A stretch of DNA of 64,000 nt from Croceivirga sp. (GTDB lineage: Bacteria; Bacteroidota; Bacteroidia; Flavobacteriales; Flavobacteriaceae): contig JANQRG010000041.1 in assembly GCA_028284665.1 (NCBI GenBank), positions 62,001 to 126,000 of the forward strand, read 5' to 3'. Shown in pieces: positions 27,119 through 42,162 of the stretch. The notes beneath the pieces were generated by a model. That model was not told the DNA's origin. It did no database searches and saw only the letters and a program-made list of their open reading frames with translations. How positions within the stretch are numbered: position 1 is the stretch's first letter; each line of letters opens with the position of its first letter. A program made the position numbers and the translations under genes.

Positions 27119-28090
27119 TTGCAAACTTTCGATACGCTTTCTCCTATTACAGATGTTCAGTACTATTTGCAATCCAAAGAATGGCTAAGAACTGACGAAC
27201 AACTACAATCCATAGAAAAACCAGGTGAAGGCAATATGAACGTGGTCTTGAGGATACAAACCAATGAACGTTCTTTTATCCTAAAACAATCCCGGCCCTA
27301 TGTGCAAAAATACCAGCAGATTGCGGCACCGCTTTCACGTATCGGTGTAGAATACAAGTTTTACGAAGCTATGCAGGGTAATGCTTCACCCGCATATCTG
27401 CCCAAAATCCTGGGTTATGATGAAAATAATTACGTGATGCTCCTTGAAGATCTGGGAAATTGCGAGGACATGACATCCATCTATAAAAGAAGGAACATTG
27501 CTCCTGAAAAAGTAGCGCAACTCCTGTTTATCCTAAATGAGGTACATCGAAAAAAAGCGGCAACCCTATTTCCTGAGAATATGGAAATGCGTCGTCTGAA
27601 TCATCAGCACATTTTTGTACTTCCCTTTTTAGAAGATAATGGATTTCAATTGAACGATGTACAATCCGGTCTACAACAACTTGCCGAGCCGTATAAAACC
27701 GATACCACACTAAAAAACGATATTACCAGGATTGGCCACCACTACCTCTCCCAAGGGGATACGCTGCTGCATGGTGATTATTATCCCGGAAGCTGGATGA
27801 CCGAAGGGGATAACCTCTATGTTATAGACCCTGAATTTAGTTTTATGGGATTCGCTGAATTTGATCTTGGTGTAATGACTGCTCATCTTATCCTTACTAC
27901 CCATCAAAACAGGTATCTTGATACTGTTTTAAACAATTATAAGGGGCAAGTAGATAAAAAACTGGTTTCCCAGGTCGCCGGGATAGAAATTATGCGCAGA
28001 ATTATAGGGTTGGCACAATTACCTTTGGAAAGAACCCTTGACGAAAAAAAGTCCCTTTTACAAATGGCCCATAAAATGATCTTGTTGTGA
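27119..28090 (+). CDS. APH/choline-kinase-like phosphotransferase (methylthioribose-kinase-like fold)
   Basis: GEGNMNVVLRIQTNERSFILKQSRPYV nucleotide-binding region, LLHGDYYPGSWM (HGDxxxxN-like) and VIDPEFSFMG. Confidence 0.82.
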   Translation: MQTFDTLSPITDVQYYLQSKEWLRTDEQLQSIEKPGEGNMNVVLRIQTNERSFILKQSRPYVQKYQQIAAPLSRIGVEYKFYEAMQGNASPAYLPKILGYDENNYVMLLEDLGNCEDMTSIYKRRNIAPEKVAQLLFILNEVHRKKAATLFPENMEMRRLNHQHIFVLPFLEDNGFQLNDVQSGLQQLAEPYKTDTTLKNDITRIGHHYLSQGDTLLHGDYYPGSWMTEGDNLYVIDPEFSFMGFAEFDLGVMTAHLILTTHQNRYLDTVLNNYKGQVDKKLVSQVAGIEIMRRIIGLAQLPLERTLDEKKSLLQMAHKMILL

Positions 28091-29382
28091 ACTATAGAGT
28101 CTATGCTTTTTTGAGCCTTGCCGTTCTTTGGATTTCTTGTGAAAACGCGAAATCAAAAGTGGATATTCCTTCTCCAAAGAAAGCGGCCTATGCCTCCGAT
28201 ACACTTCAACTTTCCCGAGAAGCCCTTTATGATAAAGTCCTGGGTGCTTTGGTAGGTTCTGCCATTGGCGACGCCATGGGGGCCTCTACTGAAATGTGGC
28301 ATCGCAAGGATATACAATTGAAATACGGTTACCTTACGGATATCACCCCCGTGGTGCGTCCACAATCCCCGGAAGGTAGTTGGGCACATAATCTTATGGC
28401 AGGCGCCACTACTGATGATACACGCTGGAAGTATTTGACGACCAAATATTTTAGCGAATATCGCACGGAACTTACCCCAAAAAACTTTGCTTCTTTCATA
28501 GTAGATTACTACCAATCCCAAACAGAGAAATTAGGGGATGATGGCATTGCTGTTGCACCAGACACCTTGGACAATCGCATTGAAAAAATTGATTGGATAA
28601 AAGAATGGGCAAGAGTGGCCCTTGCGTACAGCAAAAGCCCGGAAGAGTACCGGATAGCACAAAGCCGATTTTACGGTGGGGAAATGTCATGTGCGGGGCA
28701 ATTATACACCCCTATGTTCGGGTTGGTTACAAATACCCCTGATGGAGCCTACCGGATCGCTTATGACCATGCCCTGTTTGATATTGGATATGGCAAGGAC
28801 ATTGCTGCCCTGGTTTCGGCGATGACGCATATGGCATTACGTACCCAAAATATGGATTCCATACTCAAGGTCGCTACGTTTGTAGACCCTTTCGGGTATC
28901 AGGATAGTCGATTGGTTGGGCGGATCTCGTATAGCATTGCCGAGAATTCCATAAAGAACGTATTGGCTATTCGGCAGGAGGTCCTTGTAGACTCCCCGAT
29001 CACAAAAGATTCCATCCTATTCAAGATTCCCGAAGGATTCCCGGAACACAAAAACGAATGGGTACGCCAAGAAAGGGTCTACCAGCTTTTGGAAAAAGAC
29101 GAAAGAGCCATTGCTTTTCACGCCGCAGAAATCTGGCAGATCCTGATCACGGGAATGCAATTTGGCAAGGGTGATTTTGAGAAAACCATTCAATTCATAG
29201 TGAATTACGGCCGTGATAATGATACGGTTGCTGCCCTAGCCGGTATGATCCTGGGTGCCAGGGAGGGCTATTCCAACCTACCAGACCCTCAAAAGAAAAA
29301 GGTGTTACAGGTGAACAAAGAAAATCTTGGTATAGATCTGGAGGCACTGGCACAAGAGCTTATCGCGAATATAAAACAATGA
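28087..29382 (+). CDS. ADP-ribosylglycohydrolase family protein, predicted lipoprotein
   Basis: GSAIGDAMGASTE, TTDDTRW and GRDNDTVAALAGMILGA; N-terminal lipobox LAVLWISC. Confidence 0.88.
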   Translation: MNYRVYAFLSLAVLWISCENAKSKVDIPSPKKAAYASDTLQLSREALYDKVLGALVGSAIGDAMGASTEMWHRKDIQLKYGYLTDITPVVRPQSPEGSWAHNLMAGATTDDTRWKYLTTKYFSEYRTELTPKNFASFIVDYYQSQTEKLGDDGIAVAPDTLDNRIEKIDWIKEWARVALAYSKSPEEYRIAQSRFYGGEMSCAGQLYTPMFGLVTNTPDGAYRIAYDHALFDIGYGKDIAALVSAMTHMALRTQNMDSILKVATFVDPFGYQDSRLVGRISYSIAENSIKNVLAIRQEVLVDSPITKDSILFKIPEGFPEHKNEWVRQERVYQLLEKDERAIAFHAAEIWQILITGMQFGKGDFEKTIQFIVNYGRDNDTVAALAGMILGAREGYSNLPDPQKKKVLQVNKENLGIDLEALAQELIANIKQ

Positions 29383-32501: not shown

Positions 32502-33029
32502 ATGCGAATTTTAGTGCCGGCTATCCTGGTAGCCCTACTTTTCTCCAACGCTTTCTCCCAAAATACCATTAAAGCCACCTTAGATCGTTTTAATGACGGC
32601 AGCGTTCCTTATATCACAGTAGCAGAATTGAAATCCCAGGAACCTGTGGTTCTATTGGATACCCGGGAGGAAGAAGAATTTGCTGTAAGTCGGATACCCG
32701 GTGCTACCTGGGTAGGATACGATACTTTTATAACGGAAAAGGTGGTTACCAACATCCCGGACAAAACTACCCCTATTGTGGTGTATTGTTCGGTTGGCGT
32801 ACGGTCCGAAAATATTGGCGAACGCCTCCAAAAAGCCGGCTATACCCAGGTAAAAAATCTCTATGGGGGAATTTTTCAATGGAAGAATGAGGACAATACC
32901 GTAGTAGATGCTGCAGGAAACCCCACCGAAAAAGTACATGCTTTTAATCAACATTGGGGAAAACTGTTGACCAAAGGAGATAAAATCTACAATACCAAAT
33001 CTGACCCCGTTGCGCCCAAAAACAAATAG
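32502..33029 (+). CDS. Secreted rhodanese-like domain protein
   Basis: Signal peptide; YCSVGVRS active-site Cys loop. Confidence 0.88.
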   Translation: MRILVPAILVALLFSNAFSQNTIKATLDRFNDGSVPYITVAELKSQEPVVLLDTREEEEFAVSRIPGATWVGYDTFITEKVVTNIPDKTTPIVVYCSVGVRSENIGERLQKAGYTQVKNLYGGIFQWKNEDNTVVDAAGNPTEKVHAFNQHWGKLLTKGDKIYNTKSDPVAPKNK

Positions 33030-33630
33030 CCTACTGCTTATTTTCACCAGAAATCCCGAATTGGGAAAATGCAAAACCCGCTTAGCCAAAACCGTGGGAG
33101 ATAAAATTGCGCTGGATATCTACAAATTTTTGCTGGAGCATACCGTTGCCATTACGGCCGGGCTGGAGGTTACTAAGCAGGTGTATTATTCCGAAGAGAT
33201 TTGGGAAAAGGATATCTGGAATCCGGATAGTTATCAAAAAAAGTTACAAAAAGGCCGTGATTTGGGAACACGTATGTGGAATGCTTTCCGGGATGGGTTT
33301 GATCAGGGGTTTGATAAAATTATTGTAATCGGGAGCGATATGTATGAGCTCTCCCAGGCCGATCTTGAAAACGCCTTTGGGGTATTGGACCAACACGATT
33401 ATGTTATAGGCCCCGCTCAGGATGGAGGATATTACCTATTAGGGATGAAAAGTGGCAACAAAACCCTTTTTGAAAATAAAGTATGGGGCACCGAAACGGT
33501 ATTACCAGACACCTTGGAAGACCTGAAAAAGGAAAGTTATGCCCTATTGGAAACCCGAAACGATGTGGACCTGTATGAGGACATCAAGGACATTGCCGTA
33601 TTTCAACAATTTTTAAAGCACAAACCATGA
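33010..33630 (+). CDS. TIGR04282 family arsenosugar-associated glycosyltransferase (DUF2064)
   Basis: LLLIFTRNPELGKCKTRLAKTVGD, IGSDMYEL, IGPAQDGGYYLLGM; probable TTG start. Confidence 0.88.
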   Translation: MRPKTNSLLLIFTRNPELGKCKTRLAKTVGDKIALDIYKFLLEHTVAITAGLEVTKQVYYSEEIWEKDIWNPDSYQKKLQKGRDLGTRMWNAFRDGFDQGFDKIIVIGSDMYELSQADLENAFGVLDQHDYVIGPAQDGGYYLLGMKSGNKTLFENKVWGTETVLPDTLEDLKKESYALLETRNDVDLYEDIKDIAVFQQFLKHKP

Positions 33631-34442
33631 CAAAAAAACAATTAAACGAATCTGTCGCCTATTTAAAGCACAAGGGGTTTGAGGCTCCCGAAATAGGCAT
33701 TGTCCTGGGCACCGGACTAGGTAAAATGGTGGATGAGATAACTGACGCGATAGAAGCCCATTATAATCATATTCCCTATTTTCCGCTGGCTACCGTAGAA
33801 TTTCACTCCGGAAAATTGATCTATGGCACCATAGCCGGAAAAAAAGTAGTGGTAATGCAGGGGCGCTTCCATTTGTATGAAGGCTATGATTTCCTGGATG
33901 TGACCTATCCCATACGCATTATGCATCAATTAGGGATCCAGAAGCTGTTTATTTCCAATGCGGCCGGTGCCATTAACCTCAGCTTTAAAAAAGGGGATAT
34001 CATGCTCATTGAAGACCATATCAACCTTCAGGGAGGCTCGCCCTTAGCCTTTAAAAATGTATCCGAATTTGGCGACCGTTTTGTGGATATGAGCGAACCC
34101 TATGATCCGGAAATGCGCAACAGCATTGAAGAAATCGCACAGCGGGAAGGGATTTCCCTGCAAAAAGGCGTTTATGCCTCGGTTGTTGGACCTCAGTTAG
34201 AAACCAAAGCAGAATATCGGATGTTAAAAATTATAGGAGCGGATGCGGTGGGAATGAGTACGGTTCCTGAAGTAATTGTTGCCAATCATTTGCGACTACC
34301 TATAGTAGCCGTTTCGGTTTTAACCGACGAATGCGATCCGGATAATCTACAACCCATTAATATCCAGGAGATTATAGAAATAGCTGGGAATACGGAACCA
34401 AAAATGATACAATTATTCAAAGAATTAATCAAGACACTATGA
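33627..34442 (+). CDS. Purine-nucleoside phosphorylase
   Basis: GIVLGTGLGKM, GRFHLYEGY, SNAAGAIN and GADAVGMSTVPEVIVA motifs. Confidence 0.93.
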   Translation: MTKKQLNESVAYLKHKGFEAPEIGIVLGTGLGKMVDEITDAIEAHYNHIPYFPLATVEFHSGKLIYGTIAGKKVVVMQGRFHLYEGYDFLDVTYPIRIMHQLGIQKLFISNAAGAINLSFKKGDIMLIEDHINLQGGSPLAFKNVSEFGDRFVDMSEPYDPEMRNSIEEIAQREGISLQKGVYASVVGPQLETKAEYRMLKIIGADAVGMSTVPEVIVANHLRLPIVAVSVLTDECDPDNLQPINIQEIIEIAGNTEPKMIQLFKELIKTL

Positions 34443-35404
34443 GTTATTTAAATGCCACACAAGACCTATACAAAGAAGCTGCTTTGACCCCGGATGTGGG
34501 ACTCTGTTGTACTACCAACCCGATTTGGCAGTTTCCCGGCTTATCCATTCCAAAGATCATGCAAGAAATGAATTATGGCTGTGGCAGTACAGTGTCCGCC
34601 CAAGATCTCGTGAATGACCCAAAGGTACTGTATGTAGGCGTTGGTGGCGGAATGGAACTATTGCAGTTTGCCTATTTCTCAAGACAAAAAGCCGGAGTCA
34701 CCGGGGTAGATGCCGTAGAAGAGATGCTTGAGGCTTCCCGGAACAACTTCGTACAGGCCGAAGCTGAAAATGATTGGTTCAAAAGTGAATTTGTCAACCT
34801 GGTTAAAGGCGATGCTTTACATCTTCCGGTTGCCGATGAAAGTATAGATGTAGCCGCGCAAAACTGCCTGTTCAATATCTTTAAGATGGAAGATCTTAAA
34901 AAGGCCGTTGCGGAAATGTACAGGGTACTTAAACCCCACGGGCGGCTGGTAATGAGTGATCCCATCTGTGAACAGCCAATGAATGCTGACTTGCGCAACG
35001 ATGATCGCTTAAGGGCTTTGTGTCTATCAGGGAGCATTCCCCTGAAGGACTACATAAAAGTACTTACTGATGCCGGTTTTGGCACTATTGAGATCAGGGG
35101 CCGTAGATCCTACAGGGTCCTAAGTCCTAATCATTATCCTACTGATGAATTGATCTATATTGAATCTATTGAAATAGCCGCTATTAAAGATCCCATGCCT
35201 GAAGATGGTCCCTGTGTTTTTACGGGAAAAACCGCAATTTATTACGGAAACAAAGACTATTTTGATGATGGGAAAGGGCATGTATTACAACAAAACCAGC
35301 CTTTGGCGGTATGCGATAAAACGGCAGCGGCACTAGGTCAGGCCAGTGACGAAATTCATATAAGTGAAAGCACCTGGCATTACAATGGAGGAGGATGTTG
35401 TTAA
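34439..35404 (+). CDS. arsM: Arsenosugar-type arsenite methyltransferase ArsM
   Basis: DVGLCCTTNPIWQFPGL Cys pair, SAM-binding VLYVGVGGGMELLQF, C-terminal YNGGGCC. Confidence 0.88.
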   Translation: MSYLNATQDLYKEAALTPDVGLCCTTNPIWQFPGLSIPKIMQEMNYGCGSTVSAQDLVNDPKVLYVGVGGGMELLQFAYFSRQKAGVTGVDAVEEMLEASRNNFVQAEAENDWFKSEFVNLVKGDALHLPVADESIDVAAQNCLFNIFKMEDLKKAVAEMYRVLKPHGRLVMSDPICEQPMNADLRNDDRLRALCLSGSIPLKDYIKVLTDAGFGTIEIRGRRSYRVLSPNHYPTDELIYIESIEIAAIKDPMPEDGPCVFTGKTAIYYGNKDYFDDGKGHVLQQNQPLAVCDKTAAALGQASDEIHISESTWHYNGGGCC

Positions 35405-35464
35405 TTAACGATGCGCTGTAAGTTTTAGGGGGCAATTACTACTAGTGTAAAAAAAGTTGCTGCT

Positions 35465-36160
35465 TTGGGTCCAAAAATAAGTATTATCATTCCGGTGCTG
35501 AACGAAGCTGGTTTCATCGGAACGTCATTGTACCACTTGAAAGAAAACGCTAAAGATCCGGAAGCGTTGGAGGTATTAGTGGTCGATGGCGGGAGTACCG
35601 ATGATACCGTTCAAATTGCTACTTCTCTAGGCGCCAAAGTCCTACCCTCTGCAACCGGCCGGGCCAAACAAATGAATTTGGGTGCCCAAAATGCTACTGG
35701 TGAAATCCTGTATTTTGTACATGCTGACACCCTTCCCCCCAAACACTATGATGCATATATTCTCGAGGCCCACCGTCAAGGGTATACCGCCGGTTGCTTT
35801 CGTATGAAATTTGATACAACTAACTGGTTTCTGCGCTTTTTCGCCTGGCTCTCAAGAATTAATCATACACTTTGTAGAGGAGGAGATCAGTCCTTGTTTG
35901 TAGCAAAGGAACTTTTTGAAAAAACCGGAAGGTTCAACGAAGATTACCTGATCTATGAAGACAGCGAGTTTATAAGGAGACTGTACAAGACCTTGAAATT
36001 CCGGGTGCTTCCTCATTATGTAATTACTTCGGCTAGAAAATACCGGCAAAAAGGATGGCTGAAAGTGCAATTCCATTTTGGAATGATTCACCTTAAAAAT
36101 TACCTTGGGGCTGGACCCAAAGACCTGTTTCAATACTATAAAAAGAACCTTCTCACCTAA
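35465..36160 (+). CDS. TIGR04283 family arsenosugar-associated GT2 glycosyltransferase
   Basis: ISIIIPVLNEAGFI, VVDGGSTDDT, ATGRAKQMNLGA; probable TTG start. Confidence 0.9.
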   Translation: MGPKISIIIPVLNEAGFIGTSLYHLKENAKDPEALEVLVVDGGSTDDTVQIATSLGAKVLPSATGRAKQMNLGAQNATGEILYFVHADTLPPKHYDAYILEAHRQGYTAGCFRMKFDTTNWFLRFFAWLSRINHTLCRGGDQSLFVAKELFEKTGRFNEDYLIYEDSEFIRRLYKTLKFRVLPHYVITSARKYRQKGWLKVQFHFGMIHLKNYLGAGPKDLFQYYKKNLLT

Positions 36161-36173
36161 AAACCTCTTCAAA

Positions 36174-37082
36174 ATGAACCTTGTAACACCCTGGACATTC
36201 TTTTTCCTATTCGTGCTGATTGTAGGGTGCAAAAATCCTGGACAAAATGAAAAAACAACTGAAATACCTCAGGCTGTAGCCTCAGCGGATAAGGGCAGCA
36301 TCCCGGAAAGTTGGATAAAACGAAGGGTCGATAAAGCACAACAACGTCTTCAAGCTTCGGAAGCGGGAAAAATTGTCTGGCAGGCCATGGAAGCACATGG
36401 TGGTTTAGCCCAATGGTATTCCAACGGACCATTCACATTTCGCTTTAACTACCAACCCCTTGATGGTGGCACGCCAAGGGATACTTACCAAGCCGTTGAT
36501 ACCTGGAGCAGTAAAGCCCGTCATTTTCAAGTGGGGGACTCCACCTCGCAATACGGTTGGGATGGCAATACGGCCTGGGTGATGGCACAGGACAGCACTG
36601 CATTTCCCTACAACACCCGGTTTTGGTCGCTTACACCTTACTTCTTTGCTGCACAGCCCTTTGTGCTGGACGGGAACGGGGTAAATTTAGAATTACTTCC
36701 TCAGGCAGCGCATCTCGGCAAAACACAGGATGTTGTAAAGGTTACTTTTGATGCCGGTACTGGGGATGCACCCGATGATTATTACATTCTCTATTTTGAT
36801 GCCGAATCGCATATCCTTAATGTAATTCGCTATATCGTTTCTTATCCCGGATATTTTAAAAAAGGGGAGCATCTGCCGGAGAAATTCATGCAGCTTGAAG
36901 GAGAACAAGAGGTTGCAGGGATCCATTTTCCGAAGCGCTATACTACCCACTGGCTAAACGATGACGAAAGTCCCGGAGAACATATTACTTCGGTAACCTT
37001 GAGTACTATCGAATTCCAGCCGAATTTAGAAGAAGGTTTTTTTCAAATTCCCGCTAAAGCCCAACTACTGGAAGGGCTTTAG
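36174..37082 (+). CDS. Hypothetical lipoprotein (LolA/DUF6503-like)
   Basis: MNLVTPWTFFFLFVLIVGCKN lipobox; QAMEAHGGLAQWY N-terminal motif. Confidence 0.75.
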   Translation: MNLVTPWTFFFLFVLIVGCKNPGQNEKTTEIPQAVASADKGSIPESWIKRRVDKAQQRLQASEAGKIVWQAMEAHGGLAQWYSNGPFTFRFNYQPLDGGTPRDTYQAVDTWSSKARHFQVGDSTSQYGWDGNTAWVMAQDSTAFPYNTRFWSLTPYFFAAQPFVLDGNGVNLELLPQAAHLGKTQDVVKVTFDAGTGDAPDDYYILYFDAESHILNVIRYIVSYPGYFKKGEHLPEKFMQLEGEQEVAGIHFPKRYTTHWLNDDESPGEHITSVTLSTIEFQPNLEEGFFQIPAKAQLLEGL

Positions 37083-41442: not shown

Positions 41443-42162
41443 TTATTTGGTTTCGTTTAAGGCCCAATCGTAGGGATAGTAACCTACTTTGGCGCTGGTA
41501 TTGATTTTTTCTTTGCGGAACTGGTTGATAAATTCAACTTCGTTTTGGCCCTCTTGGGTAAAATCACCTTTGTACCACTCAAAAATTTGGGAAATCAGCA
41601 CCTTTTTTCCTTTAACTCTAACGAAGTCGGGATTGTTTAAGGCCAATTCGGTTTGCCGTTGCAGTTGAGATTCTAAAGTATTAGGCAAATAGGCTTCATC
41701 AATTATGGGAGGACATCCTATGCCTGCACAAACCAACACAAAATGAAAACGAGCTTCTTTCGGAAAATTACCGCGCAGCAGGATATTCTCAATATCATTT
41801 AAAGTGATCTGTTTCCCGCCAAAATCGCGTTTAGTGATGTCAAAAAAGCCTTTGATATCCAAGGGGGATTTCACAGGATAGTTATCCAAAATTCCTTTAA
41901 TTACTAAAAGATTGTACCCGTTGATCCATACTGCCTGATATGTTTTTGCATCTTCTTTTGCTACGGAAAGGGTTTTACCAAGTTCCAAAAGCTCATCAAT
42001 AGCAGCGGAATTTGCTTTTATTGCGTTGTAGTCTACCCTACCGTTTTTAATATAAGTGGAAAAAAAAGTGTCCGCTTTGGAAAAGAAATCTGCTGTTCCC
42101 TGGGATACTCCCAATTGGAAGATCAGCAGCCCTATAAGCGTAAAAAGCGTTTTTGTTTTCAT
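41443..42162 (-). CDS. DUF547 domain-containing protein
   Basis: VWINGYNLLVIKGILDNYPVKSPLDI, CAGIGCPPI, DUF547 hallmarks. Confidence 0.88.
   Translation of the reverse strand: MKTKTLFTLIGLLIFQLGVSQGTADFFSKADTFFSTYIKNGRVDYNAIKANSAAIDELLELGKTLSVAKEDAKTYQAVWINGYNLLVIKGILDNYPVKSPLDIKGFFDITKRDFGGKQITLNDIENILLRGNFPKEARFHFVLVCAGIGCPPIIDEAYLPNTLESQLQRQTELALNNPDFVRVKGKKVLISQIFEWYKGDFTQEGQNEVEFINQFRKEKINTSAKVGYYPYDWALNETK

Follow-up and report, generated by a model that had tools for sequence, protein, structure and literature searches.

The stretch of DNA analysed here (hereafter the window) covers 64,000 nucleotides of a Croceivirga sp. genome (assembly GCA_028284665.1, contig JANQRG010000041.1, positions 62,001 to 126,000 of the forward strand) and contains a co-directional gene cluster of the arsenosugar type, arsenosugars being a major organic form of arsenic in seaweeds. 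According to our comparative analysis, the purine nucleoside phosphorylase (PNP) encoded in this cluster (33627-34442, + strand) probably removes adenine from the arsenonucleoside made by the radical S-adenosylmethionine (SAM) enzyme ArsS, within a scheme in which a split operon provides phosphorolysis, sugar-nucleotide formation and transfer by a GT2-type glycosyltransferase; judging from sequence comparisons, we put the probability of this reading at roughly 0.6. Briefly, ArsM would produce dimethylarsenite, which ArsS, encoded on another contig, would join to the 5'-deoxyadenosyl moiety of SAM. The window PNP, as a putative 5'-deoxy-5'-(dimethylarsinoyl)adenosine phosphorylase, would then phosphorolyse the arsenonucleoside to adenine and 5-deoxy-5-(dimethylarsino)ribose-1-phosphate. 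Finally, the TIGR04282 protein, predicted to have a CofC-like fold, would probably convert this sugar-1-phosphate into a nucleoside diphosphate (NDP)-sugar, i.e., NDP-arsenoribose, from which the TIGR04283 glycosyltransferase would transfer the arsenoribosyl unit to a glycerol-type acceptor. The supply of dimethylarsenite by ArsM and the adenosylation of arsenic by ArsS follow the literature cited in PMC12159101 and PMC8552651; what we infer is which substrate the PNP acts on and what it releases, the formation of an NDP-sugar and the nature of the acceptor. The literature that we searched, mainly open-access, names no enzyme for adenine removal or sugar activation. ArsM and ArsS having already been assigned, our analysis names candidate genes and residues for these two steps, in flavobacteria that can be cultured.

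The genome to which the window belongs is 4.6 Mb long and 97% complete, and all genome-wide statements below rest on searches. Its sole match to TIGR04167 above cut-off (445 bits for a cut-off of 300) is an ArsS gene located on contig C43, the window lying on contig C16, so that the lack of ArsS in the window reported in the initial annotation holds for the window without extending to the genome, an ArsS-free genome being among the grounds for refutation that this annotation had named. Directly upstream of ArsS are genes for an AhpD-like TIGR04169 partner and for a second DUF2064 protein, while a TetR gene lies downstream. Since ArsS and its AhpD-like partner are found on the other contig, the window cluster represents half of an arsenosugar operon that has been split. 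Its arsenosugar nature, already proposed in the initial annotation, is borne out by ArsM, TIGR04282 and TIGR04283 matches that are all above cut-off and by the presence of ArsS in the genome. Among 121 genomes of the same family (120 in addition to that of the window), 94 encode ArsS, 74 an ArsM of the arsenosugar type and 112 relatives of the PNP, the usual gene order in relatives being AhpD-ArsS-rhodanese-TIGR04282-PNP-ArsM-(fatty-acid hydroxylase)-(DUF547)-TIGR04283. That this family is Flavobacteriaceae is suggested by the cluster PNP of one of its genera, which is nearly identical to the PNP of Flavobacterium turcicum. The PNP gene lies at most 12 kb from ArsS in 76 of the 94 genomes encoding the latter and shares its strand in 75 of these 76; of the 74 genomes containing ArsM, 72 have the PNP gene less than 3 kb away from it and in the same orientation. 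ArsS is located elsewhere in 18 genomes, including that of the window, and PNP and ArsM are still found together in 14 of them. Moreover, 20 ArsS-containing genomes devoid of an ArsM of the NF038099 type nonetheless carry the PNP subfamily.

This subfamily, which we call type A, comprises sequences 57-86% identical to the window PNP, together with a decayed copy next to ArsS in genome G059, while the family matches that are 46-50% identical to the window PNP were termed type B and adjoin lpxK in seven of the eight genes examined. The co-occurrence of this PNP subfamily with ArsS, which the initial annotation had proposed as a check, is indeed observed: type A is present in all 94 family genomes with ArsS vs. 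11 of the 27 without it (Fisher test ignoring kinship, 4e-13). The most telling case is a large genus represented by 201 genomes, in which ArsS and type A PNPs are found in exactly the same 15 genomes (a count uncorrected for phylogeny), and all 15 type A genes lie, by coordinates, at most 8.3 kb from ArsS; the lower-identity, lpxK-linked type B is kept as well in 13 of these 15 genomes. The type A genes of this genus occur in at least three gene arrangements and fall into two separate lineages when placed on the type A tree, and therefore the pairing of PNP with ArsS is not one frozen neighbourhood. At a larger scale, 84,980 species genomes were scanned for ArsS, yielding 80 loci from many phyla. 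A PNP gene adjoins ArsS in six of these loci, which all belong to Bacteroidota (Flavobacterium turcicum, Chitinophagales, Chitinophagaceae, Thermoflavifilum, and two metagenome-assembled genomes (MAGs), from Cyclobacteriaceae and Bacteroidia, respectively). In the corresponding tree, these ArsS-adjacent PNPs and type A form one clade (support 0.85), apart from the ArsS-unlinked PNPs of the phylum. As minor observations, the PNP gene beside ArsS in G059 (locus L101, 6868-7643) is interrupted by a stop or a shift of frame, reflecting either decay or an assembly error, an ArsS-lacking genome of the large genus (G505) has a partial PNP match that could be either type A or type B, and a scan of viral contigs with a PNP fragment yielded one locus.

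The window PNP belongs to the trimeric PNP-I family, as indicated by its scores against NF006054 (349 bits, cut-off 218) and TIGR01700 (304.5 bits, cut-off 293) and by a TM-score of 0.95 to 4lna. Residues were compared with the sequences of human PNP and of MTAP, the phosphorylase of 5'-methylthioadenosine (MTA), whose key residues fell at the published numbers. Ile246, Asp234 and Glu192 of the window PNP correspond to His257, Asn243 and Glu201 of human PNP, respectively, so that the inosine/guanosine pocket of the human enzyme (Asn243, His257) is not what is found in the window PNP. The equivalent of His257, which in human PNP lies close to the 5'-OH of the bound nucleoside, is Ile or Val in 89 of 89 type A sequences from the ArsS-associated clade, whereas His is kept in 23 of 23 lpxK-type (type B) and related PNPs; in human MTAP, the aligned residue is Val. 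The AlphaFold2 model of the window PNP agrees with this alignment: its C-terminal helix (246-270) begins at Ile246, just as the human helix runs from residue 257 (PMC4308819). Furthermore, Asp in place of Asn243 suits adenine, the human PNP variant E201Q:N243D cleaving adenosine analogues (PMC2799393). With Asp at 243 and a hydrophobic residue at 257, the predicted type A pocket thus fits a 5'-substituted adenosine. The likeness to MTAP is confined to single pocket positions, the window PNP scoring well below the cut-off of the MTA phosphorylase family (TIGR01694, 103 bits vs. 275). Finally, a DeoD-type PNP is encoded beside deoC elsewhere in the genome, along with a uridine-phosphorylase relative, and therefore the window PNP is not the sole PNP of the organism, a possibility raised in the initial annotation, and is freed from housekeeping.

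The closest solved structures, i.e., the PNP-I enzymes of Spirosoma linguale (4lna) and Planctomyces limnophilus (4m1e), are 51% and 44% identical to the window PNP, respectively, and share its Leu200/Asp243 pattern with Leu at 257, but fall outside the ArsS-adjacent clade. In contrast, the PNP of Bacteroides fragilis (8swt) and the lpxK-linked flavobacterial PNPs resemble the window PNP in family, Glu201 and Asp243, but retain Phe200 and His257, the latter enzymes being linked to lpxK instead of ArsS. Two simple signatures were rejected: Asp243 does not mark arsenosugar PNPs, the lpxK-type enzymes having Asp too (it is position 257 that separates those two groups), and a hydrophobic 257 is not unique to the ArsS-linked clade, the ArsS-unlinked PNPs of the phylum having Leu or Val. 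Our claim therefore rests on co-inheritance plus pocket and not on the pocket alone, and what we offer as a sequence signature is a hydrophobic 257 equivalent combined with a TD[ED]CDPDNL-like loop. The role of adenine remover put forward in the initial annotation is hence strengthened by co-inheritance with ArsS and by pocket fit, while catalysis on the arsenonucleoside itself is something that we infer from these sequence features.

Several observations weigh against this assignment. Besides the lack of diagnostic value of Asp243 and the hydrophobic 257 of ArsS-unlinked PNPs, Glu201 is retained, so that activity on 6-oxopurines is possible. Most of the ArsS loci outside Bacteroidota (within the 80 scanned) have no PNP neighbour, which led us to reject the idea that the PNP accompanies ArsS everywhere; other lineages therefore need another or an unlinked enzyme, and the PNP-ArsS linkage looks like a Bacteroidota solution. 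Finally, 11 family genomes without ArsS retain a type A PNP, five of them as a rhodanese-TIGR04282-PNP-TIGR04283 set without ArsM and six with the PNP away from those genes. One of these 11 genomes (G016) contains a frameshifted ArsS remnant (C7:79733-80042; locus L331, 4725-5043), flanked by the same TetR and patatin genes as ArsS in the genome of the window, indicating that a recent loss of ArsS explains the presence of an orphan PNP at least there. A divergent ArsS in the genomes that keep the cluster without ArsS was also considered and rejected, as a search with loose thresholds returned only unrelated radical SAM proteins below 40 bits, except for the G016 remnant. Separately, one Gemmatimonadales MAG has an MTAP-superfamily gene close to ArsS (locus L279, 772-1695), a possible independent route to adenine removal.

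At face value, the ArsS-lacking genomes that retain the PNP would also fit a role off the arsenosugar path, in which the enzyme clears 5'-deoxyadenosine (and MTA) arising as a by-product or from uncoupled turnover of ArsS. Asp243 and a hydrophobic 257 would suit these two nucleosides equally, and no MTA/S-adenosylhomocysteine nucleosidase was found among the PF01048 members of the genome, which are only the window PNP, the DeoD PNP and the uridine-phosphorylase relative. However, other radical SAM enzymes are presumably present in all genomes, yet the large genus has type A only where it has ArsS, and the recurrence of TIGR04282 and TIGR04283 partners suggests that the sugar phosphate is used, which makes clearing an unlikely function, albeit one to keep in mind. 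The retained Glu201, the score above the cut-off of the inosine/guanosine family TIGR01700 and the presence of the gene in 11 genomes without ArsS could instead be those of an ordinary inosine/guanosine phosphorylase, lying in the operon by chance. However, a DeoD PNP is already encoded in the genome and 13 of the 15 ArsS-containing genomes of the large genus keep a second PNP, of the lpxK-linked type; moreover, the equivalent of His257 is lost across the clade and ArsS linkage is seen repeatedly, in several gene arrangements and in several families, and we therefore regard a chance association as quite improbable.

Two further explanations receive very little credit from us. In vitro and in the presence of dithiols, arsenate is reduced to arsenite by mammalian PNP (see the review PMC12608789), and the PNP gene adjoins arsM, so that the enzyme might assist arsenate reduction, by a phosphorolysis in which arsenate substitutes for phosphate followed by thiol reduction, and feed arsenite to ArsM, but this is a general property of PNPs that leaves the change at 257 and the exact pairing with ArsS unexplained, and the 20 ArsS-containing genomes without an NF038099 ArsM have the PNP all the same. 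Likewise, the rhodanese-TIGR04282-PNP-TIGR04283 core, kept in five genomes lacking both ArsS and ArsM (three of them with a 5-methylthioribose-kinase-like gene within 8 kb, the other two with a related gene on a different contig), might make an arsenic-free 5-deoxyriboside to which ArsM and ArsS are an add-on, were it not that one of the five is G016, whose ArsS pseudogene points to recent loss, and that outside the clade TIGR04282 and TIGR04283 recur with ArsS but without the PNP.

Returning to adenine removal as the preferred function of the PNP, its product would be activated by the TIGR04282/DUF2064 protein (33010-33630, + strand; 210.5 bits, cut-off 134), which NCBIfam names "arsenosugar glycosyltransferase" and which the initial annotation had likewise taken for a glycosyltransferase. 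Profile searches also match this protein to CofC, and its structure model (mean predicted local distance difference test of 95.5) has a GT-A-like fold of the nucleotidyltransferase type: a fold search returned 364 PDB matches at E <= 0.001, the first being 3cgx ("putative nucleotide-diphospho-sugar transferase"), followed as nearest folds by nucleotidyltransferases, namely mycobacterial Rv2983, MM2497 (2i5e), 3-phosphoglycerate guanylyltransferase, IspD, KdsB and GlmU. Its residues K22, R24, D110, D138, D185 and D187 are invariant. On the basis of this modelled fold, TIGR04282 probably acts as a nucleotidyltransferase and not as a glycosyltransferase; we propose it as a candidate sugar-1-phosphate nucleotidyltransferase and suggest that its database name be changed to "nucleotidyltransferase". 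CofC/FbiD and 3-phosphoglycerate guanylyltransferase share the fold of the model but only about 14-16% identity with it, and the substrate proposed for TIGR04282 differs from theirs in being a ribose-1-phosphate. Beside ArsS on its own contig, upstream of AhpD, the second, divergent DUF2064/TIGR04282-like protein mentioned above (locus L003, 8819-9505; 80 bits, below cut-off) recurs in relatives.

The stereochemistry agrees with the scheme: PNPs give alpha-ribose-1-phosphate, nucleotidyl transfer keeps the configuration and GT2 enzymes, such as the TIGR04283 protein (35465-36160, + strand; 237 bits, cut-off 182; PF00535), which is an operon member in relatives, invert it, leading to beta-ribosides, and natural arsenosugars are beta-ribosides. 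A complete phosphorolytic route, in which a dedicated arsenonucleoside phosphorylase would give arsenoribose-1-phosphate, a CofC-like enzyme an arsenic sugar nucleotide and a GT2 enzyme the beta-riboside, with a kinase of the window's clade (see below) returning free arsenoribose to the path, is proposed tentatively, as a possibility rather than an expectation. We know of no report of arsenic-containing sugar nucleotides as a class of metabolites.

In terms of precedents, the same logic is found in bacteriohopanepolyol synthesis, where the radical SAM enzyme HpnH adds 5'-deoxyadenosyl to diploptene, instead of arsenic here, and HpnG, a putative phosphorylase, then takes off the adenine (PMC12583986). 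With our proposal, this hopanoid scheme of radical adenosylation followed by phosphorolysis would also apply to a metalloid. The likeness is one of function only, HpnG (TIGR03468) belonging to a branch of the superfamily different from the trimeric PNP-I family of the window PNP, which has no TIGR03468 match in the NCBIfam search. Dedicated phosphorylases of specialised-metabolite pathways are also known from FlB of the fluorometabolite pathway, which phosphorolyses 5'-fluoro-5'-deoxyadenosine in preference to adenosine, and from NucPNP of the nucleocidin cluster, which cleaves MTA and adenosine (PMC8694150). Both resemble the window PNP by pathway role, the 5' substituent and the linkage to radical SAM chemistry being different.

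Regarding the rest of the cluster, scored against curated NCBIfam cut-offs and also searched with Pfam, the genes named in the initial annotation are all present on the + strand, essentially where it had placed them and each above its NCBIfam cut-off, save for one lipoprotein. ArsM (34439-35404, + strand) is an arsenite methyltransferase of the arsenosugar type (NF038099 AsSugarArsM, 567 bits, cut-off 400). The PNP gene overlaps both TIGR04282 and ArsM by 4 bp, while the overlap of about 20 bp between the rhodanese and TIGR04282 genes is contingent on a TTG start. The secreted, single-domain rhodanese (32502-33029, + strand; NF045521 rhoda_near_glyco, 200.9 bits, cut-off 145; PF00581) is a recurrent neighbour in the arsenosugar operons of relatives; the Cys of its catalytic loop (YCSVGVRS) is intact and the loop Y-C-S-x-G-x-R-S is kept in 19 of the 19 relatives examined, but a role as sulfur supplier for thio-arsenosugars is speculative. 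The predicted lipoprotein (36105-37082, + strand; likely start at 36174 by its lipobox), which the initial annotation had counted in the cluster, has no family match in Pfam or NCBIfam and is missing from nearly all related clusters compared; it is therefore not a conserved member of the operon and was left out of the system.

Upstream of the cluster, and in the window's clade only, lie genes for an APH-fold kinase related to 5-methylthioribose kinase (27119-28090, + strand; TIGR01767, 144 bits, below the cut-off of 275) and for an ADP-ribosylglycohydrolase-family lipoprotein (28087-29382, + strand; PF03747, 128 bits). The kinase occurs in 15 of the 121 family genomes, and in 11 of these its coordinates place it no more than 8 kb from the PNP; it is contiguous and co-directional with the cluster in loci L107 and L125, and paired with the lipoprotein in L107, L108 and L125. 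A kinase for 5-substituted riboses would give the same sugar-1-phosphate from the free sugar, which we regard as a lead and not as a claim.

Among the genes encountered in the operons of relatives, a DUF547 gene raised the question of whether the one at 41443-42162 of the window is a displaced operon copy; this was ruled out, locus L129 having both the DUF547 gene of the operon and a second, outer copy. A PF04116 fatty-acid hydroxylase gene recurs in the operon (locus L116, 9436-10323; also L118, L122, L124, L133 and L135) and hints at an arsenolipid as end product. Finally, one operon (locus L127, 5133-6251) includes a gene for a phosphate transporter of the PHO4 family, with DUF547 and ArsM on either side.

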